A stretch of DNA of 64,000 bases from Liolophura sinensis. Taxonomy: Eukaryota; Mollusca; Polyplacophora; Chitonida; Chitonidae. Below the pieces are notes generated by a model. The model searched no databases. It was given only the letters and a program-made list of their open reading frames with translations, and had not been told where the DNA came from. Shown piece by piece: positions 2,963-59,974 of this stretch (the first letter of the stretch is position 1; every line of letters begins with the position of its first letter). The stretch covers positions 16,875,704 through 16,939,703 of the forward strand of contig NC_088304.1 of the NCBI RefSeq assembly GCF_032854445.1, read 5' to 3'. The translations under genes were made by a program, and so were the position numbers.

Positions 2963-4056
2963 GGTAAACAAATGGTGAAGTTTTATTTCCAATTTTAATC
3001 TGAGTTTACACAACGAGACATTCCATACCAATATTCAGTTAAAATAACACATAATGTTAACCGAGAGGAAATTTACCCAGCGGATACAGATTTGTGCTGT
3101 GCAGTGAACCCGTCCAGCCTTCCTACAGAGCCGTCACGGCAGCAGCACAGACACTCCATTATGGAACAATTGCTATTAATGGAAATATGGAATTTGCTTC
3201 ACCCAGTATCATCCCTTGAGGGGTCATGCAGGGACTGCGAACGCCCTAGCAGTCCGTAAACAACCGACTATGAAATACAAGACTCCTTCCTGTCAGATAT
3301 TATGGTACACTGCTTTCTCAGTCCACATGGGATATCGTAGGAAACACTAAAACATGGCAGCCAAGTGTAGAGCCTGACAGAAAACAACTACAAGTAAATA
3401 TTATATATATATTATTGATAAAATACCAAAATGTCCATCTATGAAATGTACCAGAAGTGGTACACTGTCATGATATACATATATCAGTATTATGCAGTGT
3501 TATTTGAAACTACATGTTCTAGCATTTCTAGTATTGAAAATTAACCTAGACCACTTTTGGTTCCAAATAAATGAAGCAGTTTTCAAGCAAATGCAAACAA
3601 CCAAGTGATCACAATTGCAACTGCAAACCATAATGACACTCAATTATTATAACATACGAGTTAACCATATTTTGATGTCCCATTTCCATTAGAGTACAAC
3701 TTCTGTACATTGATAGATAAGATACAGAGAAAATGAGCCACTGTTACCAGGGATTTCGGTTATGTTGAGTGTATTAAATGGACGACTGACAATAGATACA
3801 CACATGCCATTATTTAAGGAAGCAGACATTTACTGAGTGACCCCAGCCTTGTGACTTAATTTTTCACTAAAAACTGTACCAATAGTAGTGTACAGTATAC
3901 ATTTGTAAGCTCATGTAAATGGTAATGAAAATAAATACATGGCAAATACAGAGTCTAGGTGACAAATAAACTCATTACTTATCTAGACTTATGGTTTATA
4001 GGCACATACACTGTATTGTTTGTCAAAATGACCATCATGATTACATGTACATTAAT
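2963..4056. other. Non-repetitive stretch with one exon-like segment (3106-3218)
   Basis: Most of this stretch holds nothing recognisable. On the plus strand a good acceptor (tttgtgctgtgcag, ending about 3104) is followed by a 37-codon open frame read from 3106 to a TGA at about 3216. Its composition is coding-like (it includes the residues AVTAAAQTLHYGTIAING). I could not assign the peptide to a family. It may be a terminal exon or a gene relic; no partner exon was found. Confidence 0.3.
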
Positions 4057-4447
4057 GAGAACACTGTAACACTGAGGCATTGGCAGTGAAATCAGAGCTT
4101 AGCCTCTGATTTGTACAAAACTGTGCATGCATCATGCCATCTGACACAGTCTGAACCTCAATGATGAGAACACTGCAACACTGAGGCACTGGCAGTGAAA
4201 TCAGAGCTTAGCCTCTGATTTGTACAAAACTGTGCATGCATCATGCCATCTGACACAGTCTGAACCTCAATGATGAGAACACTGCAACACTGAGGCACTG
4301 GCAGTGAAATCAGAGCTTAGCCTCTGATTTGTACAAAACTGTGCATGCATCATGCCATCTGACACAGTCTGAACCTCAATGATGAGAACACTGCAACACT
4401 GAGGCACTGGCAGTGAAATCAGAGCTTAGCCTTTGATTTGTACAAAG
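4057..4447. repeat. 109-bp tandem repeat, about 3.6 copies
   Basis: The string gagaacactg starts at 4057, 4166, 4275 and 4384, a constant 109-bp spacing. The copies are nearly identical (a few substitutions, such as gtaacac versus gcaacac), which suggests recent duplication. The last copy is cut off about 65 bp into the unit. Confidence 0.9.
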
Positions 4448-7340: not shown

Positions 7341-7433
7341 TCTATCGCACATGTGCCCACGGCCTTCAGACTGAAATTCATCATAGACAGAAAATACAGA
7401 TACATGTACATGTATATTGTTAGCCACTCATTC
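7341..7433 (+). repeat. Flank of the 41-bp satellite, repeated inverted at about 11829-11911
   Basis: This sequence (gcacatgtg...cggccttcag...cagaaaatacagatacatgt...gttagccactca) recurs in inverted orientation at about 11829-11911, in the same position relative to a satellite monomer. It is therefore part of a dispersed element in which the satellite unit is embedded. Confidence 0.7.
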
Positions 7434-9217
7434 GGTTGCCTAGTGCCATGTACATCTCCACATCTCACTCATATGGTCACCTAGTGCCATGTACATCTCC
7501 ACATCTCACTCATATGGTCGCCTAGTGCCATGTACATCTCCACATCTCACTCATATGGTTGCCTAGATCCATATACATCTCCAAATCTCACTCATATGGT
7601 CACCTAGTGCCATGTACATCTCCACATCTCACTCATATGGTCGCCTAGTGCCATGTACATCTCCACATCTCACTCATATGGTCGCCTAGTGCCATGTACA
7701 TCTCCACATCTCACTCATATGGTCACCTAGTGCCATGTACATCTCCACATCTCACTCATATGGTCGCCTAGATCCATGTAGATCTCCACATCTCACTCAT
7801 ATGGTTGCCTAGATCCATATACATCTCCAAATCTCACTCATATGGTCACCTAGTGCCATGTACATCTCCACATCTCACTCATATGGTCGCCTAGTGCCAT
7901 GTACATCTCCACATCTCACTCATATGGTCGCCTAGTGCCATGTACATCTCCACATCTCACTCATATGGTCACCTAGTGCCATGTACATCTCCACATCTCA
8001 CTCATATGGTCGCCTAGTGCCATGTACATCTCCACATCTCACTCATATGGTTGCCTAGATCCATATACATCTCCAAATCTCACTCATATGGTCACCTAGT
8101 GCCATGTACATCTCCACATCTCACTCATATGGTCGCCTAGTGCCATGTACATCTCCACATCTCACTCATATGGTCGCCTAGTGCCATGTACATCTCCACA
8201 TCTCACTCATATGGTCACCTAGTGCCATGTACATCTCCACATCTCACTCATATGGTCGCCTAGTGCCATGTACATCTCCACATCTCACTCGTATGGTTGC
8301 CTAGATCCATATACATCTCCAAATCTCACTCATATGGTCGCCTAGATCCATGTACATCTCCACATCTCACTCATATGGTTGCCTAGATCCATATACATCT
8401 CCACATCTCACTCATATGGTCGCCTAGATCCATGTAGATCTCCACATCTCACTCATATGGTCACCTAGTGCCATGTACATCTCCACATCTCACTCATATG
8501 GTCGCCTAGATCCATGTAGATCTCCACATCTCACTCGTATGGTTGCCTAGATCCATATACATCTCCACATCTCACTCATATGGTCGCCTAGATCCATGTA
8601 GATCTCCACATCTCACTCATATGGTCGCCTAGTGCCATGTACATCTCCACATCTCACTCATATGGTCGCCTAGTGCCATGTACATCTCCACATCTCACTC
8701 ATATGGTTGCCTAGATCCATATACATCTCCACATCTCACTCATATGGTCGCCTAGATCCATGTAGATCTCCACATCTCACTCACATGGTCGCCTAGTGCC
8801 ATGTACATCTCCACATCTCACTCATATGGTCGCCTAGATCCATGTAGATCTCCACATCTCACTCATATGGTCGCCTAGATCCATGTAGATCTCCACATCT
8901 CACTCATATGGTCGCCTAGTGCCATGTACATCTCCACATCTCACTCATATGGTCGCCTAGATCCATGTACATCTCCACATCTCACTCATATGGTCACCTA
9001 GTGCCATGTACATCTCCACATCTCACTCATATGGTCGCCTAGTGCCATGTACATCTCCACATCTCACTCGTATGGTTGCCTAGATCCATGTACATCTCCA
9101 CATCTCACTCATATGGTCACCTAGTGCCATGTACATCTCCACATCTCACTCATATGGTCGCCTAGATCCATGTACATCTCCACATCTCACTCATATGGTC
9201 GCCTAGATCCATGTACA
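7434..9217. repeat. 41-bp satellite array, about 43 units, with 6-unit higher-order repeat
   Basis: The core unit runs from catatggtcgcctagtgcc through atgtacatctccacatctca, with a 41-bp period (tagtgccatg at 7441 and again 41 bp on). Three monomer types alternate: tagtgccatgtacat, tagatccatatacat and tagatccatgtagat, also distinguished by gtcgcc, gtcacc or gttgcc before them. From about 7560 to 8300 the types follow a 6-monomer order repeated three times (246 bp). To the right the order becomes irregular. The array shows no coding potential. Confidence 0.95.
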
Positions 9218-23600: not shown

Positions 23601-26600
23601 CAATTACTGTCAAAGACTCACAACATAGCGGCATTGCTATTCGACCTTACCGAAGGGGAGACAACAAATACAGGTAGGAGTAATGGCATCGGTGGATCTT
23701 AACACTGCTGTTTTCCAGTGTCCGGGAACTCTGAAAGCAGAATGAAGAGTTACAGAACAAAGTGAACTAATGTGAATATGCAAATAAGAATTGTATCCAT
23801 GAGTCATATTAAGTCTGATGACAATCACAGGACGCCATCCATGACACAACTCCAACTTCTCAAAGCTCTCTTAAGGTGACCAAAATGGGGAAAACAGCCA
23901 GCAGTGAGAAACATCCTCACTTCATAACAGGTCCTGATATTTTCGTAGTGACCAAACAGGGATCGAAAGGCAGACTTCATCTTATTGCTGAATGCAAGTT
24001 ACACATTTTCACATGAAAATCCAAGCTCAGCAGAACAAAGCACTATCGTCTAGTATAAATAACTACTCACCCTTCCAATAGTTTGCTTGCTGACTTGACT
24101 CATAATAATGATCTTGTTTCTGAAAATTTGAAGAAATGTTTTGGAAAAAGAAACTATTTGTGAAGAGGACAGGGAGAGCTACAAATATGTAGCTTTGTTG
24201 ACAGCTGACACTAATGTTTCGCGAAAAACATAAATAATCCATTAAGTAATTTCCATTCATCTGTAGGCAATATGTACAACTATTCTGCAATAAAGGGTTC
24301 TGTTGAAATTTTATGAAAACAAATATTACATGGAGTACAATGACACATGTAACTGATCTATAACCATCTTTACCAATATCAGGTACATGTGGCTTACAAA
24401 GTTCTTAAAATCTGTCACAGTGTCCCCCCTCCCCACCCCACCCCCCAAAAGGGGGGGGGGGGGCAATAGAGTTTGACAGTTATTCTCAGACTGCTACTCA
24501 TACTTATAATTTTAGGTGATGTCCTCTAGCCTAACACTTACCCTAAAACATGATCATCAGGCACGGTTGGAGAGTTTGTGGCTATCCTACCTCTCTTACT
24601 GCGGTGAGCATCCCCACTCTCCTTGTCTGCAGGCCTGCTCTCCTCAGCTATACAACATAACATCAGCTTCATCACATCACTCTCAAATATGGGTAAATTG
24701 GTTACACACGAAGAGCTGACTGAAAGATCATGAGGAAATCTTCAATACATCCACACCATACACAACCGTTGTTAATCCTTCGACTTCGAAACTGATGATT
24801 ATCTTCATAACTTATCTCATACAGTCCTTACAAACACTACAATGTCACATGAGCAATAGCGATGATGAGCTATTGTTCACATCACCATACGAATTGCAAT
24901 TTAACTAGGCTCCCTTGAGACATGACAGAGATGTGAGCTAGGCCAACTTTATAAATACATTTATTTGGGGTAAACCACTTTACCCTTAAAATGTGGGCCT
25001 TACTCCAAAAGTTATTAAGATTTTGATGGAAACATCCGTTTTTACTTTTCAACGTTAATGTATTTAAAATCCGTATGTTTTTCATTAAAAAAAAACATCA
25101 AATTTTAAGATTACCCCACAAACCTACCTTAGTTTGGATTACCTCATCAAGAAATCTTCTAAGTTAGCCCAATCAGACCAACAGAGCAATATTTTATCAT
25201 TTCACTGTATATCCATCTGGTTATAAATAAACTAATGCCAAGTCACACAGGTAACTGCTCTCACCTGACACCGGCCACGAAAGACGTTTTCCTGAGGTGA
25301 TACAGGCTGAGATTCCAAATGGATTCTGGGACACTGTGCCTCTTATCCAGCTTTGCAGTGTACGGATAGAGAATAGCCGAGTCAGCTGAGGAGAAACAGC
25401 ATGCAAGGGTATCAGTACTACAGCAGGATATTACATCACAGTAGACAGTCATAGAAATATATAGGGATCAAACATGGTAACAATCCATCACGAAGAATAG
25501 TCATGGAACAGCACAATTACCACAGATGGAAAGATTCCATCACGAAGAATAGTCATGGAACAGTGCAATAACCACAGATGGAAAGATTCCATCACCAAGA
25601 ATAGTCATGGAACAGCACAATTACCACAGATGGAAAGATTCCATCACCAAGAATAGTCATGGAACAGCACAATTACCACAGATGGAAAGATTCCATCACC
25701 AAGAATAGTCATGGAACAGTGCAATCACTAAAGATGGAAAGAATCCATCACGAAGAATTGTCATGGAACAGTGCAATAACCAAAGATAGAAAAAATCCAT
25801 CACGAAGAATAGTCATGGAACAGTGCAATAACCACAATGGAAAGAATCCACCACAAAGAATTGTCATGGAAGAGTGCAATAACCAAAGATAGAAAAAATC
25901 CATCATGAAGAATAGTCATGGAAGAGTGCAATAACCACAATGGAAAGAATCCACCACAAAGATTTGTCATGGAACAGTGCAATAACCACAGATAGAAAAA
26001 ATCCATCACGAAGAATAGTTATGGAAGAGTGCAATAACTAGAAAGGGGAAAAATCCTTCACGAAGAATAGTCATGGAACAGTGCAATAACCAAAGATGGA
26101 AAGAACCCACCACGAAGAATTGTCATGGAAAAGTGCAATAACCACAGATAGAAATAATCCATCACGAAGAATAGTTATGGAACAGTGCAATAACTAGAAA
26201 GGGAAAAAATCCTTCACGAAGAATTGTCATGGAACAGTGCAATAAACAAAGATGGAAAGAATCCATCACGAAGAATTGTCATGGAAGAGCGCAATAACCA
26301 CAGATGGAAAGAATCCATCACCAAGAATAGTCATGGAACAGTGCAATAACCACAGATGGAAAGAATCCACCACGAAGAATGGTCATGGAACAGTGCAGTA
26401 ACCAAAGATGGAAAAAATCCTTCACAAAGAATAGTCATGGAACAATGTAATAACCACAGACGGAAAGAATCCATCATGAAGAATTGTCATGGAACAGTGC
26501 AATAACCAGAAAGGGAAAAATCCTTCACGAAAAATAGTCATGGAACAGTGCAATAACCACAGATGGAAAGAATCCATCATGAAGAATGGTCATGGAACAG

Positions 26601-29600
26601 TGCAATAACCACTGATGGAAAATATCCACCACGAAGAATTGTCATGGAACAGTGCAATAACCAAAGATGGAAAGAATCCATCACGAAGAATTGTCATGGA
26701 AGACGCAATAACCACAGACAGAAAAAATCCATCACGAAGAATTGTCATGGAACAGTGCAACAACCAAAAAGGGAAAAAATCCTTCACGAAGAATTGTCAT
26801 GGAACAGTACCATAACCACAGATGGAAAGAATCCACCACGAAGAATTGTCATGGAACAGTGCAATAACCAAGGATAGAAAGAATCCATCACCAAGAATTG
26901 TCATGGAAGAGCGCAATAACCACAGACGGAAAGAATCCATCACGAAGAATAGTCATGCAACAGTGCAATAACCAGAAAGGGAAAAAATCCTTCACGAAGA
27001 ATTGTCATGGAACAGTACAATAACCAAAAATGGAAAGACTCCACCATGAAGAATTGTCACGGAACAGTGCAATAACCAAAGACAGAAACAATCCATCACG
27101 AAGATTAGTCATGGAAGAGCGCAATAACCACGGATGGAGAGAATCCACCACAAAAAATAGTCATGGAACAGTACAATGACCAAAGATGGCAACAATTAAT
27201 CTGGAAAGACAGTCATGAAACCGTACAATGTGAGGAGAATTAAATTGTTTTCAGCAAGGAATTTCAGAGCTTGAGGACTGCATGCCACAAAGAAGCCAAC
27301 AATGTGGATTGACCACAAAACAATCTTAAAAACAAGGAAAAAACAAACAATCACTCTTCCGTCACAATGAAAAAACATCGATATAGACTTGGGAATGAAA
27401 TGTTGGAATCCATCATCAATGAAAACTAACTGTTACCAGTGAAATAATACAGTACAGCTCAGGCTAAATGTCAAAACTAGGCAGGAGATTAGAGTGCTGA
27501 CATAACGCCAAGCTTCGTTTTAATCTAATCCACACGGAAAAATAACCTCAAATCCTACCTCACTTTTGGTATCCACTGATTCCCTAAAAGGCCCAAAATA
27601 TAAATATGTCAATACCAGCACTGGTAAACCATCTTTCAATGGTAACTGCCCGTTTAAACAGTTGAATTCAGCAACTCTAACCAAGATCCGTAATGTTTGG
27701 AATTCTAACTTCAGGCAGGCCTCAAAAGTTTTATCCCAGCCAATATTCTCTTTACACGACATAAATCGTCAAACTTTATCAACTGACACCATACTATATG
27801 GTTTTGAAAATCTTAAACAATAGGAATTAATTAATCTCTCAAAACTGTTGTGGCTGGATTCACTGTGTAAATCCCTCCTCTGTACAACATTATGCAGACT
27901 AATCTTGAAAACTTTGTGAACAATCCAGTAAAATTTAAAAAAAAACAATACACCAGGTGATCCCTGATTCTGTTCTGAACATAAATGTTTTGGGTTTGTT
28001 GCTTCGTGCTTTGTAAACTTTATGCTAAGATGTGGCAAATTTACTATTAAATATCTGTCGTAAGGTTCTATATGGCATAACAAAAATGCATATCAAAATT
28101 AGTACACTGACTGTGGACGTTAATCAAAGACTTCAACTGCATATTTACTCCCTTAATCAAGTTGATGAATTGAATTTGTGGTGCAGAGGTAGGTTATGCA
28201 TTGCAAGTTAAACTTTCCTCTTTTCAGGTCTAGTATATATTTACTAGTACAGGTTCACATAGCTGAATACACAAGTCTGCACCCTCGCTTGCAAACTGGG
28301 ATATGTAAGTAAACGGAACTATATTCACACCTTACAATGATAATCCCATGCCTCAGCAGATCTTCTATACTGATTTCAGTAAGAGAGTTTTCAGGCGCCA
28401 GTAGAGCAGTACTCAGTATCACGGAGTGCGCTACAAGCAGTAAACTACTGACTTCTAGCCTGAGCTGTACTGTATAAAGGAATGGTTTACAGTTATGTGA
28501 AGGGGTTACCTTGGAGTAGCCAAACTTGCTCTGTAGAGGTGGAATCATGGCTACCTGATGTAAAGCCTGCAGGCTCCTGTGGACAACGAACAATGGAGCA
28601 ATAAAGAAGGCTTCTGTAACTCCAGCACATAAAAAATCAATACTTCAGGCCTCTTACAGTTGTTTATTTACTTGAGCACACTCTCTAATCTTCAGTATAC
28701 CTTTTACAATGCACAAACTGGGATTAGTTAAAGGAGAAGAAAACATAAAAACATGACACTATAGGCTGAAAAGAGCACATTTTTTTCTATCTGGTGGTGC
28801 CTACTGCATAATTTTGCGATTTTTCTTAGCCATACATGTAAAGCCTGAAAACGGCAAAGCTGGCATAAATCGCTGAGTCCATCGTGTACTCCATCTTTAA
28901 CACCCCGTAATTTATGCTGGGGGTGTGTTGCCTCTCATCCAATGACAGTCGTTAAAATTGCCAGCTTGTTCGTGTAAAGTCGGAACCTACATCCAACATT
29001 CTGCCTTCCTGATCATGAAAATGAACTATACTGTTCGCTACCTTCTGGGAAGAAGGGTTCTACCAGAAATGTAGGAGCTGCACTTCGTCCGTTTTTGACA
29101 GCAATTCCCCTCCTAACACAGAAGACTTCAGGACTATTTCTTAGGCAAAATAGAGTCGCCCACAGCAGATTTTGGCGCCGATAATTTATCAACTTGAGGT
29201 ACATATTAGAATTTTTTATGGCATGCACCTGCAGGGAAATACATACTCTTTTCAATGGTATTTGACTGATATTTAAATTTTCTTCTCCTTTAAGCGAGCA
29301 ATACCAATCTTTCTGAAGAACATTATTTTGAACTGTTCACGTGAGTTACCACAGATTTTTTGAAAATCACATTTTGTTTGCTACTTCTCACAACATTAGA
29401 AGTTAAGAAATCATTAATGCTTATTTCTAAGCCTGGTTTCCTTTTCTGTGAAGATTTACATTGCATTCTTATTCTTTCCACAAATGAAACCTTGGGCTCA
29501 GTTAGAGTGCTAGCCTCTCACCAATGCGGTCGCCGTGAGTTCAAGTCCAGCTCATGCTGGCTCCCTCTCTGTCAGTACGTGGGAAGATCCGACAACAGCC

Positions 29601-32600
29601 TGCGGATGGTCATGGGTATCCCCCAGGCACTGCCCGCTTTCCACCCACCATAATGCTGGCTGCTGTCGTATAAGCGAAATATTCTTGAGTACAGCATAAA
29701 ACACCAATCAAAAAAAAAAAACCAAAAACCAAAAAAACAATCAAATGAAGCCTCACCCGCCCCGGTCAGTTGACGCTCCAATCAAAAAGTCCAGAGCTTC
29801 TACCGCTTCCACAGTGATTCCAAAGTCACCTAGGATTGCTGAATTGTACACATCTGAAAATGAAAAAGAGTTTTTTTATGGCCTTTAGACATTACACATT
29901 TCAAATGTCCTGCAAACTCAAGATATGACAGTCATGATAGGAAGTAGAAGTATTGTTTTTGTAGTGGAAGTCTCGTACAAACGTACCAGAATAATAGCCA
30001 ATGTCAAACTTCACCAGAGTACAATGATGTCCATATATTTTTCAAAAATGAATGAAACTGATCAAAAGTAGAATTTGATTATTAACTTGTTACAGTGAAG
30101 CTATGTACCAAGTTTCAGTAAAAAATAAAAAAAACATTTTTTTGGAGAGAAATAGTGCTACAGAAAAAGAACAGGACAAAACATTCATAATTCATTCAAA
30201 CATCAATGAATGGCGTAGAACTCAAATTTGATCTGTAACTCATCATGTCCAAAGTTTTAAAGACATGCAATGGACTATTCTGAAAAAATTTATTTATTTT
30301 TTGGGGGCATAACATGAAATAACACAAAGTACAAAATAATTCTTGCAGATTTGTAACTGTGACTCCAAGGGACACCAGATAATGAGTTTGTTTAATGATT
30401 TTAAGCAGTTTTAAAAATTGACCTACTTTTGAGCCCAGGTCATTGGTCAGTTTTGGCCTTATTTGCATACCAAACTAAAAGTGTTTTACAATATGGGCAG
30501 GGCAATCCACCTAAAAACTGTGAACATAAAGTTTATCTCGATATGTTTAGTGTTTAGGAGGAGAAGACTTTTTTGGGTAAAAATTTAAAATGGCCGCTAA
30601 ATCACATAACTGGTAGTACAGCACCAAAAGTCAAAAATTGCTCCATATGTTCCTCACTAAGATTCAAAGTTTTTCTAACTTTATCAGTTCTTCAGATATT
30701 GCAATTTTAGGAGTTCACTAAGAAAAAACACTTAATTCCTGTTTAAAGGATTAGTGTCCAGATTTAGCTACTTGTCCAAAGTATTAAGATTATAACCTGT
30801 TAACAGTATGTTTTCAGGAGAGCCTCTGGGAAAAGTAATTATGAATTTAAATCCTCCAAAAACAATAAATTTACTACTCTAGCCGATCTCCATTCGGCCG
30901 CATGGTAAAGCTCAGCAGGCGAAATCACAGATGGCCAACCCAAGTCTAGCTGGCCTATATAACCTGGGACTTCGTATCAAAACGATATCATTTTTGAGAT
31001 GGAGTCTACGTACACAAAAGCAAATATACCGCTGCATCAATTTGAAACCATAGTCTACAATGCTGAAGTTCCGATATACAACACAGACATCTCTGGTCAG
31101 ACTTCAGATTTTGAGTTTTTAGACGTTATATTTGATCTTTGTCCAGGCGTTTTCAACCGCGCTGGCAATACAGACGGGAAAGCTATAGCTTTATCCTGTG
31201 TTACACTGTTTCGAGTTTATATCAGATTTAATATTTACTATTCTTTCCTTCTGTCCGCTTCACAAAAAATGCCATCCTATTCCACAAGTGAATTTACTTC
31301 GCGGAAATTAATTTTTGTACATTTAATCAAGGCAATACTGAAAAAGAACTCTTCCAACTATTTAATTTTCCTTGTTATATTATGGCCAGAATTACTCAAG
31401 TATATCCAACAGGTATTATGAAGGGTGGCTTTAATCCTCTTTTGTTTCCTGTGGTGTCGCTACCCCCCGCCTAATCTTGATTGTAATCTTGAGTTTAAAA
31501 CAAAGGGGAAAAAAAAAACTCCAGAGTTCTTCGAGGACCTGTTTTTACAACCGTATGCAGAATAGCAAACCATTTCGTACTTCTTGCCAAATTTTTTTTC
31601 GCACTCAAATTTAACAATATATCCAGCGGTAGGTAATTATGAATAAATAACCAATCTGGACACTAATTCTTTAAGGTACTTTGAATGGACATAATCATTA
31701 GCCAGGTGCTGTCTTTCACTTTAATGCTAAATATCATACTCACAATTATTTCACTTATAACATGGTGGTTAACTTCATCAGTGGAGTGCAAATCATAAAT
31801 CGCTGGCCTTGGCAAGTTTCTGACGCACTTTCTCAAGTGTGACACACAAATTTGCACACTACATTGTTGACAGACGAGTGGTCTTCAAGAAAAGTAAAAT
31901 GGCCAGACGAGTACCTACAAATACCCTCTCTAAAGTATGGTTTGAACCTGCAGTTCAAGTGTCCTAGCCAATGACAGGCAGGCACTTTTAACCCCTAGAC
32001 CATGGCCCGATCCCCTTGAGTAGAAAGAATGATGCCTCACAATTTTGAAGTATGCAAGATGTTAATGTGAGGTATGCAAGATGTTAATGTGAGTTATGCA
32101 AGATGTTAAAGATAGGTATGGCAAAGTGTCTGTCCTGCCCCCCACTGATACTAACCAGGTTCTACAAGATGTTAACGTTAGGTATGGCAAAGTATCTGTC
32201 CTGCCCCCACTGATACTAACCAGGTTCTACAAGATGTTAATGTTAGGTATGGCAAAGTGTCTGTCCTGCCCCCCCCCCCCCCCTGATATTAACCAGGTTC
32301 AACAAGATGTTAATGTTAGGTAAGGCAAAGTATCTGTCCTGCCCCCCCCCCCCCCAACTGATACTAACCAGGTTCTACAAGATGTTAACATTAGGTATGG
32401 CAAAGTATAAGTCCTGCCCCCCCCCCCCCCCCCCCCCAACAGATACTAACCAGGTTCTACAAGATGTTAATGTTAGGTATGGCAAAGTGTCTGTCTTGCC
32501 CCCCCCCCCCCCCCCCCCCCCACCCCACTGATACTAACCAGGCTCTAAAAGATGTTAATGTTAGGTAGGGCAAACTGTCTGTCCTGTTTCCCATTGATAC

Positions 32601-35600
32601 TGACCAGGTTCTACAAGATGTTAATGTTAGGTATGGCGAAGTGTCTGTCCTGATATCCCCCCCCCCCCCACACACACACACACACTGATACTAACCAGGT
32701 TCTACAAGAAGCTCCAGAATCTCCTGTATGTGGGTCTGTACAAACTGTAAGTGGCAGTGTTCATCCAGGGTCTGAGGATAGAAGTCAAAACTCAAAAAAT
32801 ATGCATTTTATTTTTATCTCAACGATATCTTACATTAGAGTACCATTTACAACAGACATTTGACCTACACAAAAATCAAGGGGGACAACTGCATCTTTCC
32901 AGCTACAGGTATGAGTAAGCATTCAAATTTCTTTAAGTTGGATGTAAATTTCCACAAATATGTTCACACTGCTTCAACCCGACATTTGAATAATGCCTAC
33001 TTTGAGGAAGGCATGTTACATGCTCTTGTATTTCTACACTATTGGCAAGATGACTTCAGTCGTGTCACTGTTTGACAAATGTGTTGGATTAATGACACAA
33101 GATAATTCATTGTTCCAAGCTACATCCATGTAGCAGGCTGATCTGAATGTCAACATATTTACATTGCTCAAGACAACAACCATGTCATAGTATACAGATG
33201 TGCAATTGCTTTTTTTTCTTTTTTTCGGAATAAACATACATTAATGCTGTAATCCACATCTCTCTTTCTGTATTGCCATCTGGACGATAGCATCCTTCAT
33301 AAATATCTATTTTATACATGTTACTATGCACTATGTGTAACTTTGATGTCCTAATTCCTCTGTCAGTTTTGTTTTTCACAAGAAATCCTAATCCAAACTA
33401 AAAGGTTTTGTGTCATGTAGTTCATTACAGCTAGACATCATGTAAAAAGATCAGTTACACAAAAGGCTCCCCCAGACCTACAGATTCCTGCTCAAATTTC
33501 TAGATGAAAGTTTGTCTGTAGAGCTACCGTCTCACATGTAAATTAGAGCTCGATGAGCCAATAGAGTATGTCTGTAGAGCTACTGTCTTACATGTGCCTT
33601 AGAACTTAATGGACCAGTGTGGTTTGTCTGTAGAGCTACTGTCTTTACATGTACCTTAGAACTTAATGGACCAGTGTGGTTTGTCTGTGTGTGGTTTGTC
33701 TGTAGAGCTACTGTCTTACATGTACCTTAGAACTTAATGGACCAGTGTGGTTTGTCTGTAGAGCCACAGTCTTACATGTAAATTAGAACTTAATGGACCA
33801 GTGTGGTTTGTCTGTGTGTGGTTTGTCTGTAGAGCCACTGTTTTACATGTACCTTAGAACTTAATGGACCAGTGTGGTTTGTCTGTAGAGCTACTGTCTT
33901 ACATGTACCTTAGAACTTAATGGACCAGTGTGGTTTGTCTGTAGAGCTACTGTTTTACATGTACCTTAGAACTTAATGGACCAGTGTGGTTTGTCTGTAG
34001 AGCTACTGTCTTACATGTACCTTAGAACTTAATGGACCAGTGTGGTTTGTCTGTGTGTGGTTTGTCTGTAGAGCTACTGTCTTACATGTACCTTAGAACT
34101 TAATGGACCAGTGTGGTTTGTCTGTAGAGCTACTGTCTTACATGTACCTTAGAACTTAATGAACCAGTGTGGTTTGTCTGTAGAGCTACTGTTTTACATG
34201 TACCTTAGAACTTAATGGACCAGTGTGGTTTGTCTGTGTGTGGTTTGTCTGTAGAGCCACAGTCTTACATGTACCTTAGAACTTAATGAACCAGTGTGGT
34301 TTGTCTGTGTGTGGTTTGTCGGTAGAGCTACTGTTTTACATGTACCTTAGAACTTAATGAACCAGTGTGGTTTGTCTGTAGAGCTACTGTCTTACATGTA
34401 CCTTAGAACTTAATGAACCAGTGTGGTTTGTCTGTAGAGCTACTGTCTTACATGTACCTTAGAACTTAATGAACCAGTGTGGTTTGTCTGTAGAGCTACT
34501 GTCTTACATGTACCTTAGAACTTAATGAAGCAGTGTGGTTTGTCTGTAGAGCTACTGTTTTACATGTACCTTAGAACTTAATGAACCAGTGCGGTTTGTC
34601 TGTAGAGCTACTGTCTTACATGTACCTTAGAACTTAATGAAGCAGTGTGGTTTGTCTGTAGAGCTACTGTTTTACATGTACCTTAGAACTTAATGAACCA
34701 GTGCGGTTTGTCTGTAGAGCTACTGTCTTACATGTACCTTAGAACTTAATGAACCAGTGTGGTTTGTCTGTAGAGCTACTGTCTTACATGTACCTTAGAA
34801 CTTAATGAAGCAGTGTGGTTTGTCTGTAGAGCTACTGTTTTACATGTACCTTAGAACTTAATGAACCAGTGTGGTTTGTCTGTAGAGCTACTGTCTTACA
34901 TGTACCTTAGAACTTAATGAAGCAGTGTGGTTTGTCTGTAGAGCTACTGTTTTACATGTACCTTAGAACTTAATGAACCAGTGCGGTTTGTCTGTAGAGC
35001 TACTGTTTTACATGTACCTTAGAACTTAATGAACCATTGCAGGTTGTTTATAGAGCTACTGTTTTACATGTACCTTAGAACTTGATGAACCAGTGCGGTT
35101 TTCAAGGTCAGGGGAGCGAGCACGTAGTGGCCATCTTCACACTGTCAAGGAAAACATACAACACATGCCTTTCCATCCTGTACATGCATTTACAGGAAAA
35201 ACTTTAGATTTTGTCTTCTCAACTTCAAAATGTTTCGTAACAAACTTCTACACTGTTTCTACGAACTTCTAACCATAAACAGGGTCCAAAGATGTACACT
35301 AAAGGTTTCACATTTCCAGGCTAACTGCAATGAGTAATCTACAGTCTATACAAGATTAAGGCAACATAACATAGCATTTATTATCTAAAATTTTTGTTTT
35401 TCATCCCAAGAGAATGTAAGTATGCACTATTACACAAGCTAAAGTTGTTTCCGCAGTCTTAATTTAAAAGGCTTTTCCAGAAAGAATAAAAATTATCCCC
35501 CATATTTTTCAATGACTCGAGAAGTTACTTTCCAATTTCAGGCTTCAAATTATCTTTCCGGTATTTGTGACCCAGACCCACCCAACACCATAATTTATAA

Positions 35601-49400: not shown

Positions 49401-50342
49401 AAGGAAATCCTGCAATTGTAGAGTTGGTAGGTGAAAGCCTTAATGGAGACCTGAGAAATGTTAAAAAATGTGTGATCAATTGCTCAGTATGTTAAGAAAA
49501 TCACTACGGCAACACTGTTCACTTCTTTATTGTAAACTAAAAAATCAGCAACAACTGTAGGGTCATACAAAATTCACAAATGTATTACTTATCACTTTCA
49601 CACATTTACCATACATGTATCAACGTGATTTGTCTACGATGTCTGTTGCCATGGAGGTTGCGTGCTGGCAATACTATGTGTGGATAGTTAAGTGCGCAGG
49701 CTGTTGGTTTATCATAGTAATTCGTTAATCAGAGGCCTCCGTAGCTCAGTTGGTTAGGGCGCTAGCACAGCGTAATGACTCCGGAGCCTCTCACCATTGC
49801 GGTCATTGTGAGTAGCTCATGGTGGCTTTCTCTCCAGTCGTGGGAAGGTCTGCAACCTGCCAATGGTCGTGGGTTCCCCCCGAGCTGTGCCCGGCTTCTT
49901 CCCACCATAATGCTGGCTGCCGTCATATAAGTGAAATATTCTTGAGTACGGCGTAAAACACCAATCAAATAAATAATTTGTTAATGACTGGGTGGTTTAT
50001 GTTTCAGGTCTGTGGATAGGGCTGCCAGCATGTCTGGAAAATTTTGACAATTTGGTGAAAGACTTTTTCAAAGCGGGTAAAAAAACTGCACAAGAGAAGG
50101 TGATCGCAAAAGCAGAGGAGGCTATCAAAGAATTGACCAGTGACTCAGAAAGAACTTCTGCTGAAATTTACATAAAAACGATGAAAAAAATCCTTGAAAA
50201 AGGAAAAGACTTTGTGGAAACGGAGATAGCTCGAGTAGAAAAACTAAAAGCTGGCAAAGTCAGTGACAAGAAGAAAGAGCAGCTTGGTGATCGTTTAAGC
50301 ATTCTAACTTCTTTCAAGATAAGACAGAAAGATGAACTCTAA
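45793..50342 (+). CDS. ERP29: Endoplasmic reticulum resident protein 29 (four exons)
   Basis: Exons 45793-45909, 47017-47155, 48760-48921 and 50008-50342 join in phase to 250 residues (human ERp29 has 261). ERp29 (Windbeutel in flies) is a lumenal PDI-like escort factor for secretory proteins without redox activity. Visible features are a signal peptide (about residues 1-23, hydrophobic IIVGFACIISAFQVI), a thioredoxin-like domain with VVLVKFDETYPYGDKQDAFK and no CXXC motif, the conserved single cysteine of the linker (GLPACLE, Cys148), a charged all-helical C-terminal domain and a KDEL retrieval signal where many relatives have KEEL. Introns 1 and 3 carry SINEs. It is divergent from TBCCD1. 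Confidence 0.96.
45975..46226 (-). mobile_element. SINE family A copy in ERp29 intron 1, antisense to the gene
   Basis: The tail is on the left (gatttatttatcgatatgat, tgtgttttacgctgtactcg), the body in the middle (cagcattatggtggaaggaa, gggcagagccccggggaaat) and the head on the right (ttgaactcacggcggccacg, ggaggccacttgtg). It forms an inverted pair with the copy at 46460-46700. Confidence 0.85.
46315..46455. repeat. Poly-C, poly-T and (TA)n simple sequence between two inverted SINEs
   Basis: C-rich sequence (about 46317-46335) is followed by a T-run of about 28 and, at 46410-46455, interrupted (TA)n. It separates the two family A SINEs in ERp29 intron 1 and is prone to slippage in sequencing and replication. 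Confidence 0.9.
46460..46700 (+). mobile_element. SINE family A copy in ERp29 intron 1, sense orientation
   Basis: It starts within the head (agcgtaatgacccaggagtc), continues with caatgcggtcgctgggagtt and the usual body, and ends in an aaat-rich tail. The A box is missing. It is the sense partner of the inverted pair with 45975-46226. Confidence 0.87.
49085..49225 (+). mobile_element. Degraded SINE family A remnant in ERp29 intron 3
   Basis: Only the 3' part is recognisable, by gtataagtgggttttcagtg, ataaatgaaatgcatatatt and ggagaacagcgtaatacccc compared with the tail of the intact copies. It is clearly older than the copy at 49734. Confidence 0.5.
49734..49974 (+). mobile_element. SINE family A copy with near-perfect target duplication, ERp29 intron 3
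   Basis: The head is intact (ggcctccgtagctcagttgg, ttagggcgctagcac). An 11-bp flank aattcgttaat at 49719 recurs as aatttgttaat at 49975, a target site duplication with one mismatch. The right end is only about 33 bases from the acceptor of ERp29 exon 4 (50008), so the insertion sits close to the branch region. Confidence 0.88.
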
Positions 50343-53429: not shown

Positions 53430-56400
53430 ATGCTGCCTCGTACGGTGAGTAAAACTTTGGTTTTACCATTTGAAGACAAAAATGTGAAGGTAATTAATAA
53501 CCTGGTGCCAGTTGTGCAAATCTTCTTCAGACAATTCAGCAAGTGTAGACTGTACTCCTCATCAGACATCCACTTGCAACCACAAAGAAGCAATCTGTAC
53601 GTGGACAATCTCCCTTCTGCCTTCATACCAGCCTTTGCAGGACACAGTGCAGAAGATGTAGCTAAACTGCAGGAGTTTGTGCAGGCTAGTCATCGATTGT
53701 TTATCATAACAGGTGCAGGCTTGTCTACAGAGAGCGGAATTCCAGACTATCGCTCTGAGGGGGTAGGTTTATATGCCCGTAGCAACCACCGACCAATCAA
53801 CTACCAAGATTTCCTGAAGAGTGCCAAAACTCGGCAAAGATACTGGGCCAGAAATTTCACTGGGTGGTCGAGGTATTCGTCCTTCCAGCCTAACCTGGCA
53901 CATGTCACACTAAGCCGCTGGGAAGCTGCAGGAAAGTCTCACTGGCTTGTGACACAAAATGTGGATGGTCTGCACATAAAAGCGGGCAGTGTAAACTTGA
54001 CTGAACTTCATGGTAGCTTGTACAGAGTTGTTTGTCTCTCTTGTAAGAGTAAAATGAGACGACATAAACTGCAGACAATCTTGGAGTCACTCAATCCGCA
54101 TTGGAAGAAAGAATGTGTAGAGATAGCCCCAGATGGAGATGTCCAGCTGACCCAAGAGCAGGTGGAAGGATTTGTGGTAAATATTTTATATATATAGATG
54201 TATGTATATATATATATTTGTGTGTACAGTATGCAAATTTACGGATATTATTGATGTTTTACGCCATATGCAAGAAGCCATGTATTCAAAAAACTTAACA
54301 TTGCAAGGTGGTGGATGCAATTGCCCTGGATACTATTTTACATTAATCGCACAGACAACACCATGTGGTGTGGTTTTTCCTAGTGAGGGGAAGAGCTTAC
54401 ATGACAATAATGTGAAATGAACCATCCACATATACACTCAGACAACCCAGAAGTGCAGATTTGCGTCTGCACAAATTTCTTTGATACAAAAACTGCATCT
54501 ACAGCAATCTGTACTGTCGTAATATTGAAAAGGTGGATAATATGAGGTAATGTGATTGCTTTAATAAGAAGACTTGTCTTGTGACCTGTGTAACAAAGTT
54601 TTCAGAAGCATTTAGAATTTGGTGTCAAAGGCTGGATGGATATGCTGGTAGTTTCATGGTATGTTGTCACACATGTATGTACACATATATATGGCGCATT
54701 AAAGCAGAATGCCATGCCATCACATGCTATATCTGACTGTAGAACTTTCAAAATAGCTGTCAACTTGACAGGTCTGCATTGTGGATGGCTGAGTTGTTAA
54801 AGTGTCTGCCTTGTATGTGAGTGACTGGTTTCATCATGAGTCGAACATACATAACTACCTGCAACGTGGATACTTAATTTCTGTGTTACTTTCAGTGTAT
54901 AGGTCTTAAGCAGGGCATAGGTCGACTTGCAATCGTAAGAAAGTATGTACAACTTGATGCAGTAGACCTACGCGTAGGACTTACGTCAAAAACTTTGATA
55001 AAACCTTACGATCATGAGGAACTGGTGTTGTCTCATCAGATTCAGCTTTGGTGCACGTAAGGTCAGCTACGACCGGTGGCAACTGTGAGCAGAGGCTAAG
55101 GTTATTTTCTGCCTCATTGGTTGACTCAGGGGTTGCGGTATTCATAGTTTAACGCTTGCATGTGATCCACTACCTAATGCATCGCTGGGAGCAACTGTGA
55201 CCAACTGGATGCAAGCATGCGTAGATGGACGGAACTGCTGAGTCGGCAAGTGTGTGCAGATGCTAAAACCAGTATCCGATTGTATGCTTCCAGTCGCAAG
55301 TTCGATCTACGCCCGGTTTCAACTATAGCCTTGTATCAATGGGCTGTGAATGGGTGAGAGGCAGCATTCCTGTAGTGATTACCTGAGAGGTATCTCACCA
55401 AAGGAGTGTTGGTCATCTCTGTTGTGTGCCATGTGGCTGGTGGTGGTTACCTGGACTATGTTTGCAAATTCACAATTCAGATATGTTAAAGTCAGTGAAA
55501 TGACCTGACTGGTGATGGATATTCATTCAAATGGTTAAATTACAGGATTGTGTGGCCATTAAGATTTGAGGCCTTTAGAAAAATAGTGTATTGTAAAGTT
55601 AGATACGTTTTGAATTCACAATGTTGTTAGACTGGTCGGACTTGATACATGTGTTTTTCATCTTTCTGGATTCAAACTTAGGTTCCACCCTGTGCAGAAT
55701 GTGGTGGGATATTAAAACCTGACATAGTGTTTTTTGGAGACAATGTTGCCAAAGCCACAGTGCAGCTGCTGTTCAACAAACTGCAAGAGAGTGACTCCGT
55801 CCTGGTCCTGGGATCATCTCTACAGGTTTGTTATATATCCCTACATACTTCTTGTAAACTTTGGCTCCTCATCTAGTTCAAATAAACTGCTGTGTCAAGC
55901 TCATTGGCAGCAATAGAGAGTTCCAGCCCCTAAGTGAGAACACAGTCACATTTTGCTCCTTTAATCTCACTTGCCATGTGCATTTAAAGAACATTAATGT
56001 TATTAATTTATCTGTGGAGATATCTTATTTTTTATCAACTTTTTTGTTCTTTCCTTTTTCTATTCTGATTTTCAATACCTGCAATTCTTGATCACATTTC
56101 CGTACTCCTCACAGTAACAGCAGTGACGGTGTACCAGTCCTTCATTATTTCCACTTGAGCCATACATAGGGGAATTCCCATGGCGGTTACTGTAAATCTT
56201 CAAGCTTTTCGACCTCTAAAGCACTTTCTTTTCAGTAGAATTTAAGTATGCAATTATTATCAAAATGAAGGTCGAAATGATTTGCATGTGTCACTGAAGA
56301 TGCAAGCTTACTAAAACTGTGCAAATTAGCTCTCTACACTTCATGGTTCTCTCAGACTGTTTTAAAATATTAGTCGCAGAGGTGGTTGAAAGGTTGAAGA

Positions 56401-57724
56401 ATTAGGGTATATACACTGGCAGTAATATTCCCCGAAAAGAGCCAGTGACAGGGGACTCCCCATGGCTATTATATACAGTGTCAGTAAGATACATGTTTAT
56501 ACAGGTTACTGACATGTATGGCTGTTTTATACACTGTCAGTAAGACAATGTTTATGTTTACAGGCGTACTCTGTCAACAGGTTACTGACATGAGCCAGGG
56601 GAATCTGCATGGCTGTTTCATACACTGTCAGTAAGACAATGTTTATGTTTACAGGCGTACTCTGTCAACAGGTTACTGACAAGAGCCAGGGGAATCTGTA
56701 TGGCTGTTTTATACACTGTCAGTAAGACAATGTTTATGTTTACAGGTGTACTCTGTCAACAGGTTACTGACATGAGCCAGGGGAATCTGCATGGCTGTTT
56801 CATACACTGTCAGTAAGACACTGTTTATGTTAACAGGTGTACTCTGTCAACAGGTTACTGACATGAGCCAGGGGAATCTGTATGGCTGTTTTATACACTG
56901 TCAGTAAGACACTGTTTATGTTAACAGGCGTACTCTGTCAACAGGTTACTGACAAGAGCCAGGGGAATCTGTATGGCTGTTTTATACACTGTCAGTAAGA
57001 CAATGTTTATGTTTACAGGTGTACTCTGTCAACAGGCTACTGACATGAGCCAGGGGAATCTGTATGGCTGTTTTATACACTGTCAGTAAGACAATGTTTA
57101 TGTTTACAGGTGTACTCTGTCAACAGGCTACTGACATGAGCCAGGGGAATAGGTATGGCTGTTTTATACACTGTCAGTAAGACAATGTTTATGTTTACAG
57201 GCGTACTCTGTCAACAGGTTACTGACATGAGCCAGCGGAACAGGTATGGCTGTTTTATACACTGTCAGTAAGACAATGTTTATGTTTACAGGCGTACTCT
57301 GTCAACAGGTTACTGACAAGAGCCAGGGGAATCTGTATGGGTGTTTTATACACTGTCAGTAAGACACTGTTTATGTTTACAGGTGTACTCTGTCAACAGG
57401 CTACTGACATGAGCCAGGGGAATCTGCATGGGTGTTTTATACACTGTCAGTAAGACAATGTTCATGTTTACAGGCGTACTCTGTCAACAGGTTACTGACA
57501 AGAGCCAGGGGAATCTGCATGGGTGTTTTATACACTGTCAGTAAGATACATGATTATATCTATATTTACAGGTGTACTCTGCCTACAGATTCCTGGCACG
57601 GGCCAGAGACAGGGGAATCCCCATGGCTGTGGTGAACATTGGGCCAACCAGAGCAGATGCCATCGCTGACCTCAAAATTGATGCAAAATGCAGTGAGATT
57701 TTACGAGACATTCAAGTTCACTGA
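53430..57724 (+). CDS. SIRT4: Mitochondrial NAD-dependent sirtuin 4 (three coding exons)
   Basis: Coding exons 53430-54176, 55682-55825 and 57572-57724 join at phase 0 to 347 residues (human SIRT4 has 314). Class II sirtuins of the mitochondrial matrix act as lipoamidase, deacylase and ADP-ribosyltransferase on pyruvate and glutamate metabolism enzymes. Visible motifs are a basic, acid-poor leader ending FFRQFSKCRLYSSS (likely presequence), the NAD-binding GAGLSTESGIPDYRS (GAG at 95-97), TQNVDGLH (175-182), catalytic His194 in TELHG, zinc cysteines C202/C205 and C253/C256, FFGD, GSSLQ at the end of exon 2 and NIGPTRAD near the C-terminus. ATG 53430 is chosen because it is the first in frame after an upstream acceptor-like site. 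The last intron holds an array made from its own acceptor. Confidence 0.96.
54177..55681. other. SIRT4 first coding intron
   Basis: Begins GTAAATATTT with a ta/tg-rich stretch and ends in ttcaaacttag. A tRNA-like or SINE-head-like fragment may be present near 54785-54850 (ggctgagttgttaaagtgtc), but it is too degraded to class. Nothing else is recognised. Confidence 0.4.
56197..56412 (+). mobile_element. MITE-like dispersed repeat in SIRT4 last intron
   Basis: Aligns with 21790-22012 (cttttcgacctctaaagcac, cagtagaatttaagtatgca, ctaaaactgtgcaaattagc, cgcagaggtggttgaaaggt). It ends exactly where the 91-bp array begins. Confidence 0.6.
56413..57571 (+). repeat. 91-bp array made of SIRT4 exon 4 acceptor copies
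   Basis: Donor-like gtaag sites recur at 56540, 56631, 56722, 56813, 56904, 56995, 57086, 57177, 57268, 57359 and 57450, each 91 bp apart, and again at 57541. Between them the acceptor tttatgtttacag recurs with AG at 56563 and every 91 bp to 57473. Each acceptor is followed by gtactctgtcaacaggttac and gagccaggggaatctg, degenerate copies of the first 60 or so bases of the real last exon (57572: gtgtactctgcctacagatt, gggccag...aggggaatcc). Two partial units precede it. Most units carry an in-frame TGA shortly after the decoy acceptor. Confidence 0.93.
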
Positions 57725-57814: not shown

Positions 57815-58668
57815 AACTGGCTCCATCTAACATGATGTCACAGGATGAAAATGGTTAAATGCCTTGAGGATTATTAGAACTGGCTCCATCTAACATGATG
57901 TCACAGGATGAAAATGGTGAAATGCCTTGAGGATTATTAGAACTGGCTCCATCTAACATGATGTCACAGGATGAAAATGGTTAAATGCCTTGAAGATTAT
58001 TAGAACTGGCTCCATCTAACATGATGTCACAGGTTGAAAATGGTGAAATGCCTTGAGGATTATTAGAACTGGCTCCATCTAACATGATATCACAGGATGA
58101 AAATGGTGAAATGCCTTGATTATTATTAGAACTGGCTCCATCTAACATGACATCACAGGATGAAAATGGTGAAATGCCTTGAGGATTATTAGAACTGGCT
58201 CCATCTAACATGATATCACAGGATGAAAATGGTGAAAATGCCTTGAGGATTATTAAAACTGTTTCCATCTAACACGATATCACAGGATGAAAATGGTGAA
58301 ATGCCTTGAGGATTATTAGAACTGGCTCCATCTAACATGATATCACAGGATGAAAATGGTGAAATGCCTGGAGGATTATTAGAACTGGCTCCTTCTAACA
58401 TGATATCACAGGATGAAAATGGTGAAATGCCTTGAGGATTATTAGAACTGGCTCCATCTAACATGATATCACAGGATGAAAATGGTTAAATGCCTTGATT
58501 ATTATTAGAACTGGCTCCTTCTAGCATGATATCACAGGATGAAAATGGTGAAATGCCTTGAGGATTATTAGAACTGGCTCCATCTAACACGATATCACAG
58601 GATGAAAATGGTGAAATGCCTAGAGGATTATTAAAACTGGCTCCATCTAATATGATATCACAGCTATT
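57815..58668. repeat. 63-bp minisatellite downstream of SIRT4, about 13.5 units
   Basis: The block caggatgaaaatggtgaaat recurs at 57841, 57904, 57967 and onward with a 63-bp period (gaactggctccatctaacat, gatgtcac, then gccttgaggattatta). It begins about 90 bases after the SIRT4 stop and may lie in the 3' untranslated region. Because 63 is 21 codons, the minus strand keeps long open frames with a 21-residue period (GISPFSSCDIMLDGASSNNP). Confidence 0.93.
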
Positions 58669-59097: not shown

Positions 59098-59974
59098 TTA
59101 AAGGATTAGTGTCCAGATTTAGCTAGTGAGCCTAATAATGGATTCTAACTACACAGAAGCAGATATACTGCTGTTTCAATTTGAGCTCCTAATGGACAAT
59201 GAGGAAGTTCAGATTTATGACACTGGCATCTGTGACCAGACTTCAGATTCTGAGTTTAAGGTGCTGAATTTGGCCTTTGTCAAGGCATTTCCAGCTGCAC
59301 AAACTGGTAAGCTATAGCTTACACTCTACATTTCGAGTGTTTGTCTTTACTGCATGTTATTGTCAGCAATCGGAATAACCTACACGTATGCCTATATAGT
59401 TGTGTGAAATATAATTGTGGACATCATTGTCAGTGTTCAGTTAAACTTGAGCTTTTAGTCAACTCCCATAGTAGGCCACGCTTTCAAATTCAGCTGGCTG
59501 TATTCCTCTGGTAACTTGCGAATAAAATAATGGTAAGAGTGGATGGAGCTATCTTTTGCAGGCACAAAGTTTTTTAAATCTGTATATTTACTGTAAATCT
59601 GTAAATCCACATCTTCCTGAGGGTAAAACTGTCTGTAAACATGAAAAAAATGACTCCAGGGTTCTGCGATGACCTATTTTTACAACTGTATGCAGAGAAG
59701 CAAACCGTTTAGGAAGAAATTTGATATGTTGTCACTCTTGTAGCTTTTTTAAAACTGAACTAAATGGTAAAGCTCTGGTTGGACTTGTATTACGTAATTC
59801 AGCTTCTGTGATGACGGAAAAATGTATAAACCCAGCCTCATTAGCCAGTGATTTCAAGTAGCATGTTACTCATGTTAATGTACCTTTGTTAAATATTTTT
59901 TAAACATAATTTAGCAGTATATACAGGGGTAGCTAATTATGAGTAAATGATAAACCTGGACAGTAATCCTTTAA
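59098..59974 (+). mobile_element. TTAA-flanked transposon copy 2 with ORF remnant
   Basis: The ends are TTAA-AGGATTAGTGTCCAGATT and the inverted aacctggacagtaatcct-TTAA, matching the element at 30743-31674. It is internally shorter on the left. Its open frame starts at 59138 (MDSNYTEADILLFQFE...) and is about half identical to that of copy 1 over the first 60 residues, then breaks off at a stop at 59315. Confidence 0.75.

Follow-up and report, generated by a model that had tools for sequence, protein, structure and literature searches.

Mirage minisatellites were named in amphioxus, where the accessible text of PMC3087553 describes them for Adh3 and for the globin genes BflGb6 and BflGb9, and the accessible text of PMC3902484 adds troponin C and PGBD5-like repeats. 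According to the same portion of PMC3087553, the Adh3 data and RT-PCR on globins suggest that regular splicing is undisturbed by mirages. As far as these accessible descriptions go, the arrays of the chiton Liolophura sinensis reported here share with them the tandem copies of an exon-intron boundary, on the acceptor or the donor side, which lie on the intron side of the true exon. The array in the last intron of the chiton SIRT4 gene furthermore has in common with them the many units carrying AG/GT and the border units outside a homogenised core. The differences concern the host, which is a mollusc, and the dimensions: the SIRT4 unit comprises 91 bp and is present in 11 copies, compared to 10-72 bp for the units of Adh3 and 150-160 bp for BflGb6, with 6 and 3 units in two haplotypes, in the available amphioxus data. 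Instability and RNA were examined in amphioxus; the chiton arrays are described here from one genome assembly.

Other systems resemble the SIRT4 array in part. The gain of introns through tandemly duplicated segments containing AG/GT, reportedly described by Rogers 1989, Zhuo 2007 and Gao and Lynch 2009, shares the tandem duplication across splice signals. Such a duplicate, however, creates a new intron, whereas the SIRT4 intron is an existing one that has its edge repeated within itself. Ordinary intronic minisatellites show period, copy number and a homogenised core as in the SIRT4 array, but their unit contains neither exon sequence nor a splice junction. This holds true for L080 and L082, two arrays near an exon that were considered as mirages and not counted, since they lack exon sequence. 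In the literature searched, with most subscription papers outside reach, boundary-copy arrays were reported for amphioxus only and not for a mollusc, and the main text of the comparative chiton genome paper contains neither "minisatellite" nor "tandem repeat". The kind is already known from the amphioxus mirages; its presence and abundance in a mollusc are what the literature searched did not show.

The window, i.e. the whole stretch of 64,000 nucleotides that was analysed, contains the coding exons of SIRT4 on the + strand. The first of them (53430-54176, MLPRTV...EGFV) is an open frame with a SIR2 Pfam match (E 6.6e-35) and a PDB match; its start codon at 53430 is an assumption, and its donor is GTAAAT at 54177. 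The middle exon (55682-55825, VPPCAEC...GSSLQ), likewise based on an open frame and the PDB match, is followed after an intron of 1.75 kb by the real last exon (57572-57724, VYSAYRF...DIQVH*), referred to as exon 4, which was placed by PDB match and alignment and is in phase 0 with the middle exon. The naming of the gene as SIRT4 in the original prediction was confirmed by the joined three-exon protein, for which the top PDB match was 5oj7 (E 2e-105), covering residues 66-344 of 347 without a break at the joins. The table title of 5oj7 is NAD-dependent protein deacylase, and we take it to be Xenopus SIRT4. A Pfam search of ten open frames of the window found ERp29 and SIR2 and nothing else; the exon with the ERp29 C-terminal domain (49977-50339), which has a KDEL end, lies upstream of SIRT4 on the same strand.

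The 3' part of the last intron is occupied by a minisatellite on the + strand, for which TRF determined a span of 56515-57546, a period of 91, 11.3 copies and 95% matches. In the unit alignment, eleven decoy acceptors with copies of the exon start stand exactly at 56564+91n (n=0-10), and the real exon at 57572 follows as the twelfth in this series. This agrees with the original prediction of eleven units exactly 91 bp apart and of a real exon that closes the array (twelfth acceptor, 57571/57572). Each unit combines about 36 nt of intron end with about 55 nt that go back to the exon start, so that the boundary is spanned, and the authentic SIRT4 boundary is the terminal copy of the array. The distance between the start in unit 11 (57474) and the true exon start (57572) amounts to 98 bp, i.e. 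91 plus 7 extra bases of the true intron end. From the sequence, this intron end was read as the 31 nt at 57541-57571 on the + strand (GTAAGATACATG...TTTACAG), with GTAAG as in the units.

Pairwise identity among the 11 units ranged from 82 to 90 of 91 positions, and 13 of the 91 columns were variable. The consensus unit aligned to exon 4 with a score of 37, which was reached by none of 5000 dinucleotide shuffles (maximum 28), while the best unit matched exon 4 over 59 columns with 74.6% identity (E 4e-6 within the 64-kb window). Together with the register, these values bear out the earlier claim that the units are amplified from the last SIRT4 acceptor and exon start. A search of the 609-Mb assembly (632 contigs) with the unit gave at least 12 matches, all inside the SIRT4 array and its edges. 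Since this search, whose counts are lower bounds, gave one locus, the unit is, as far as the search tells, a single-locus sequence and not a dispersed repeat.

Adjacent to the 5' edge of the array, relics of the boundary were found by alignment on the + strand (56441-56501). An exon piece at 56441-56467 is identical in 25 of 27 positions (E 3e-6), and an intron piece at 56479-56501 shows 95.7% identity (E 3.6e-5). The exon piece represents a border copy outside the homogenised core and contains six exon bases missing from each of the 11 units. Since these six bases are present in the real exon as well as in the 5' relic, the units share a later deletion, and the older state is preserved at both edges of the array. 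A border copy with older letters corresponds to the pattern of excluded borders reported for BflGb6 in the accessible text of PMC3087553. Further upstream, a putative relic at 56159-56187 (+ strand; 24 of 29 positions identical, 83%, E 0.005) was the best match outside the array and its edge relics, the next, unrelated match in the window having an E of 0.066; it is probably the oldest relic of the exon-4 start. The edge relics and this upstream relic indicate that the boundary was duplicated repeatedly. In a scan of the 64-kb window, the edges of the middle exon showed no duplicate at E below 0.05.

Altogether, the SIRT4 array is very probably a mirage-type minisatellite, in which the boundary was duplicated, the inner copies were homogenised and the exon-proximal copy is spliced; judged by every feature examined in the sequence, it appears to belong with the mirages. 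The junction segment of the last intron and exon (about 36 intronic and 55 exonic bases) would have undergone repeated tandem duplication, with unequal exchange or replication slippage increasing the number of inner copies and homogenising them. Since the 3'-most copy alone continues into the full open exon, selection would keep that copy and the rest would be intron. Splicing probably takes the exon-proximal copy by exon definition, because the complete terminal exon follows that copy only and because each GTAAG lies only 24 nt before the next acceptor end, which is too short for an intron. The arrays would then most likely be neutral tandem duplications, which are tolerated because splicing presumably uses the exon-proximal copy.

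The original prediction regarded each unit as a pseudo-exon bounded by splice signals. The spacing given for it was found as claimed, with a span of 24 nt from GTAAG to ACAG and an intervening stretch of 67 nt, but the framing was weakened, as the true intron end contains the same GTAAG (57541), 30 bp upstream of its acceptor; it is also present at 56484 in the 5' relic. Since the same GTAAG stands in the true intron end, that of the units is best read, as the simplest explanation, as intron-end sequence that was copied along. The 67-base pseudo-exon is accordingly largely a by-product, for which the 67/24 spacing is real and a special cause is unneeded.

Read through, the SIRT4 decoys lead to a stop after 9 codons in 7 of 11 cases and after 53 codons in the remaining 4, so that decoy use would truncate the protein. 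If the 67-nt stretch were used as a cassette, 7 of 11 would stop after nine codons and 4 of 11 would enter exon 4 out of frame, since a length of 67 nt is not divisible by 3 and does not preserve the reading frame. The decoy acceptor AG is intact in all 11 units. By pyrimidine count in the 17 nt before the AG, the decoys (9-10 of 17) are not visibly weaker than the true site (10 of 17). The AG-free stretch amounts to 26 nt at the true site compared to 19 nt at the decoys, and the true acceptor alone precedes the whole last exon. Every unit also contains the branch-point-like TACTGAC.

An implied uniqueness of the SIRT4 array is weakened by exon-edge arrays at seven other genes, and also by the class already named in amphioxus. 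Of the nine places with SIR2 matches in the assembly, eight were extracted as loci and analysed by TRF and sequence reading, and four of the eight showed boundary arrays, namely SIRT4, SIRT2, SIRT5 and SIRT6. With the true site included in each count, SIRT2 has 7 copies of an 89-bp unit and SIRT5 has 4 copies of a 104-bp unit, both of the donor type. In SIRT6, identified by PDB match, the repeated unit measures 38 bp and is composed of the exon end GACAAGTGTCACACACAG plus the initial 20 bases of the intron; the array is again of the donor type, with 30.1 copies according to TRF and 26 ungapped copies with an intact GT, the true one included. Boundary arrays were furthermore found at four of 39 kinase exons, where the copies again include the true site: the acceptor-type arrays of PKN (37 bp, 8 copies) and a PASK-like kinase (80 bp, 7 copies), and the donor-type arrays of a receptor tyrosine kinase (RTK; 67 bp, 7 copies) and a GRK-like kinase (65 bp, 6 copies). 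While SIRT6, SIRT5, SIRT2 and PKN were named by PDB or sequence match, the names of the other three kinases were assigned by reading the sequence and are presumptive. In all eight arrays, SIRT4 included, the true site is the copy adjoining the exon. At the SIRT6 locus, about 30 copies of the intron's donor site in tandem make up the intron start (L021:1606-2730), upstream of which another array with a different unit (47/95 bp) is located (L021:1-624).

Across the eight arrays, an ungapped scan including the true sites found the splice dinucleotide kept in 74 of 76 copies. At the 68 decoys, 2 of 136 dinucleotide positions were changed compared to 77 of 1496 other nearby positions (Fisher P 0.059), in copies picked by ungapped similarity and thus with units carrying insertions or deletions left out, at least one of which, in SIRT6, has lost its GT. 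The decoy dinucleotides show no decay, which is compatible with selection to keep them, and on the whole the decoys are not being erased. Donors were also scored against the 9-base donor consensus. For SIRT6, the true donor scored 7, and the decoys scored 7 in 22 of 25 cases, 8 in one and lower in two. For the RTK, a true score of 7 compares to decoy scores of 7 and 6 in three of six cases each, and for SIRT5 a true score of 8 compares to 8 in one of three decoys and 7 in the other two. The true donor of the GRK-like kinase scored 7, while 4 of 5 decoys scored 8. At this locus (L072, sites 1276-1536 on the reverse strand), four of the five decoys, AAAG/GTAAGC, look stronger than the true AAAG/GTATGC, which makes it a sharp case for splice-site choice. 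Each array can be regarded as a natural competition experiment between one true splice site and near-identical decoys in one transcript, and by which rule one site wins has long been asked in splicing, the candidates being a position by the complete exon, signals in the exon and the decay of wrong products.

Alternatively, the SIRT4 array would be a splicing regulator, whose decoys titrate splicing factors or give early-stop transcripts and whose copy number tunes SIRT4 output. The AG intact in 11 of 11 decoys, the TACTGAC and GTAAG of every unit, the truncation of all decoy products and the slightly lower change of decoy dinucleotides compared to neighbouring positions fit this explanation. 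Nonetheless, it is rather unlikely, since the architecture recurs at other genes whose units differ in sequence and length, in keeping with a mutational process, and since amphioxus mirages are reported with regular splicing in the accessible text of PMC3087553.

The frequency of exon-edge arrays was surveyed in 39 kinase and 9 sirtuin exons (48 in total, without SIRT4) comprising 116.7 kb, part of which is counted twice due to overlapping sirtuin loci (L012/L013/L015; L011/L018). The kinase rule, set before sequence retrieval and recorded after it, admitted matches with open frames up to 150 aa and resulted in 38 loci, which together with L051 make 39. The survey did not include kinase matches whose open frame exceeded 150 aa, three of 15 sirtuin matches, the two loci of SIRT4 (L010, L016) and L014, which has an open frame of 377 aa. 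For arrays, a TRF period of 20 or more and a score of 100 or more were demanded. The first 30 kinase loci, most of which have long open frames and of which L051 alone fell under the survey rule, showed no survey-type array over the match; a 29-base repeat inside the kinase match of L041 (15-bp period, score 51) was below the criterion. The chaperonin-family gene L090, sampled as a whole gene for more exon edges per letter, showed no TRF array, with 8 exon matches in 8.1 kb.

The survey resulted in 17 minisatellite arrays, which account for 7.1% of the 116.7 kb. Five of the 17 overlap the exon match by at least 8 bases, which is about four times the 1.26 expected (P 0.005) for arrays placed at random and allowed at most one unit of exon. 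L072 was counted as a mirage based on reading and the window method and is not among these five, as its TRF overlap of 5 bases is below the 8-base rule; the SIRT5 array (L019) lies at an exon other than the Pfam match and is in neither count. In the window method, applied to the 48 exons and the 8 chaperonin exons, 6 of 112 exon-edge windows were centrally spanned by a duplicated copy compared to 22 of 318 intronic control windows. The number of 112 is an upper figure, some match edges being ends of the profile that are unproven as exon ends; among the control windows, several can be occupied by a single array. Windows with any duplicate amounted to 8 of 112 and 28 of 318, respectively. The 6 of 112 sampled exon edges are the figure to be set against the amphioxus mirages.

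These data establish the presence of boundary arrays at exon edges in the chiton. The random-placement result suggests an enrichment, which is held back from a firm claim because the sample is small, the sirtuins were sampled because of the SIRT4 finding, loci overlap and one array can occupy several windows. The window result says only that exon edges are not avoided by arrays. It is conceivable, though on balance doubtful, that exon edges are preferred birthplaces of minisatellites, and that, spread over thousands of genes, a few per cent of all splice sites would have rows of near-identical intact decoys beside them, with the spliceosome reliably taking the exon-proximal copy. The about equal coverage of exon edges and intronic points counts for this reading, since coding sequence should hold arrays off. 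With an array-rich genome outside the amphioxus lineage, the question of splice choice could be put to existing RNA reads, such as the five transcriptome samples listed in PMC11068029, and such a genome would provide material on whether new introns arise from duplicated boundaries, as has been proposed.

A false expansion of a single boundary during assembly is highly unlikely. There is an apparent false concatemer elsewhere, with seven COX1 copies about 15.5 kb apart (G000:C99:8348-102844), a mitochondrial concatemer that is probably an artefact; a single copy is present on C632. The SIRT4 units, however, differ from one another at 13 columns, similar arrays with their own unit each occur at eight genes, and the published assembly is, according to the accessible text of PMC11068029, based on HiFi reads with a mean of 8.3 kb at 14x, longer than the 1-kb array. 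This assembly was published for Liolophura japonica (PMC11068029), the species being later corrected to L. sinensis. The gene order of the mitochondrial contig (15,209 bp; genes assigned by eye, tRNAs by ARAGORN) is likewise molluscan, and its long frames stay open with the genetic code tables 5, 9, 13 and 4 but not with the vertebrate table 2. Amphioxus, to which the literature had first pointed as host, was rejected in view of this gene order and of the agreement with the chiton assembly; a search for the GFP family gave no match here and none in the control genomes. Just as improbable is a birth of the intron itself by tandem duplication of exon sequence, with the array as its remnant. Such an intron-gain model, together with degenerate intron repeats, is given for the amphioxus globin BflGb13 in the accessible text of PMC3087553; against it, the SIRT4 intron measures 1.75 kb, its first 330 bases contain no exon-4 match, and the middle-exon end has no duplicate in it. 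An inserted dispersed repeat or satellite with chance similarity to the exon can practically be dismissed: minisatellites are common here, as seen from the surveyed 116.7 kb, but the unit was found at one locus (with counts as lower bounds), its similarity exceeds all 5000 shuffles, and the units are in register with the splice junction.

A second minisatellite at 57815-58663 (63 bp, 13.5 copies) starts 90 bp after the SIRT4 stop codon. Since the first AATAAA on the + strand after this stop is found at 59521, the array may lie within the 3' untranslated region of SIRT4. Five more large minisatellites were observed in the window, at 4055-4446 (109 bp), 7425-9217 (41 bp), 25474-27196 (52 bp), 32046-32652 (65-88 bp) and 33510-35101 (56 bp).
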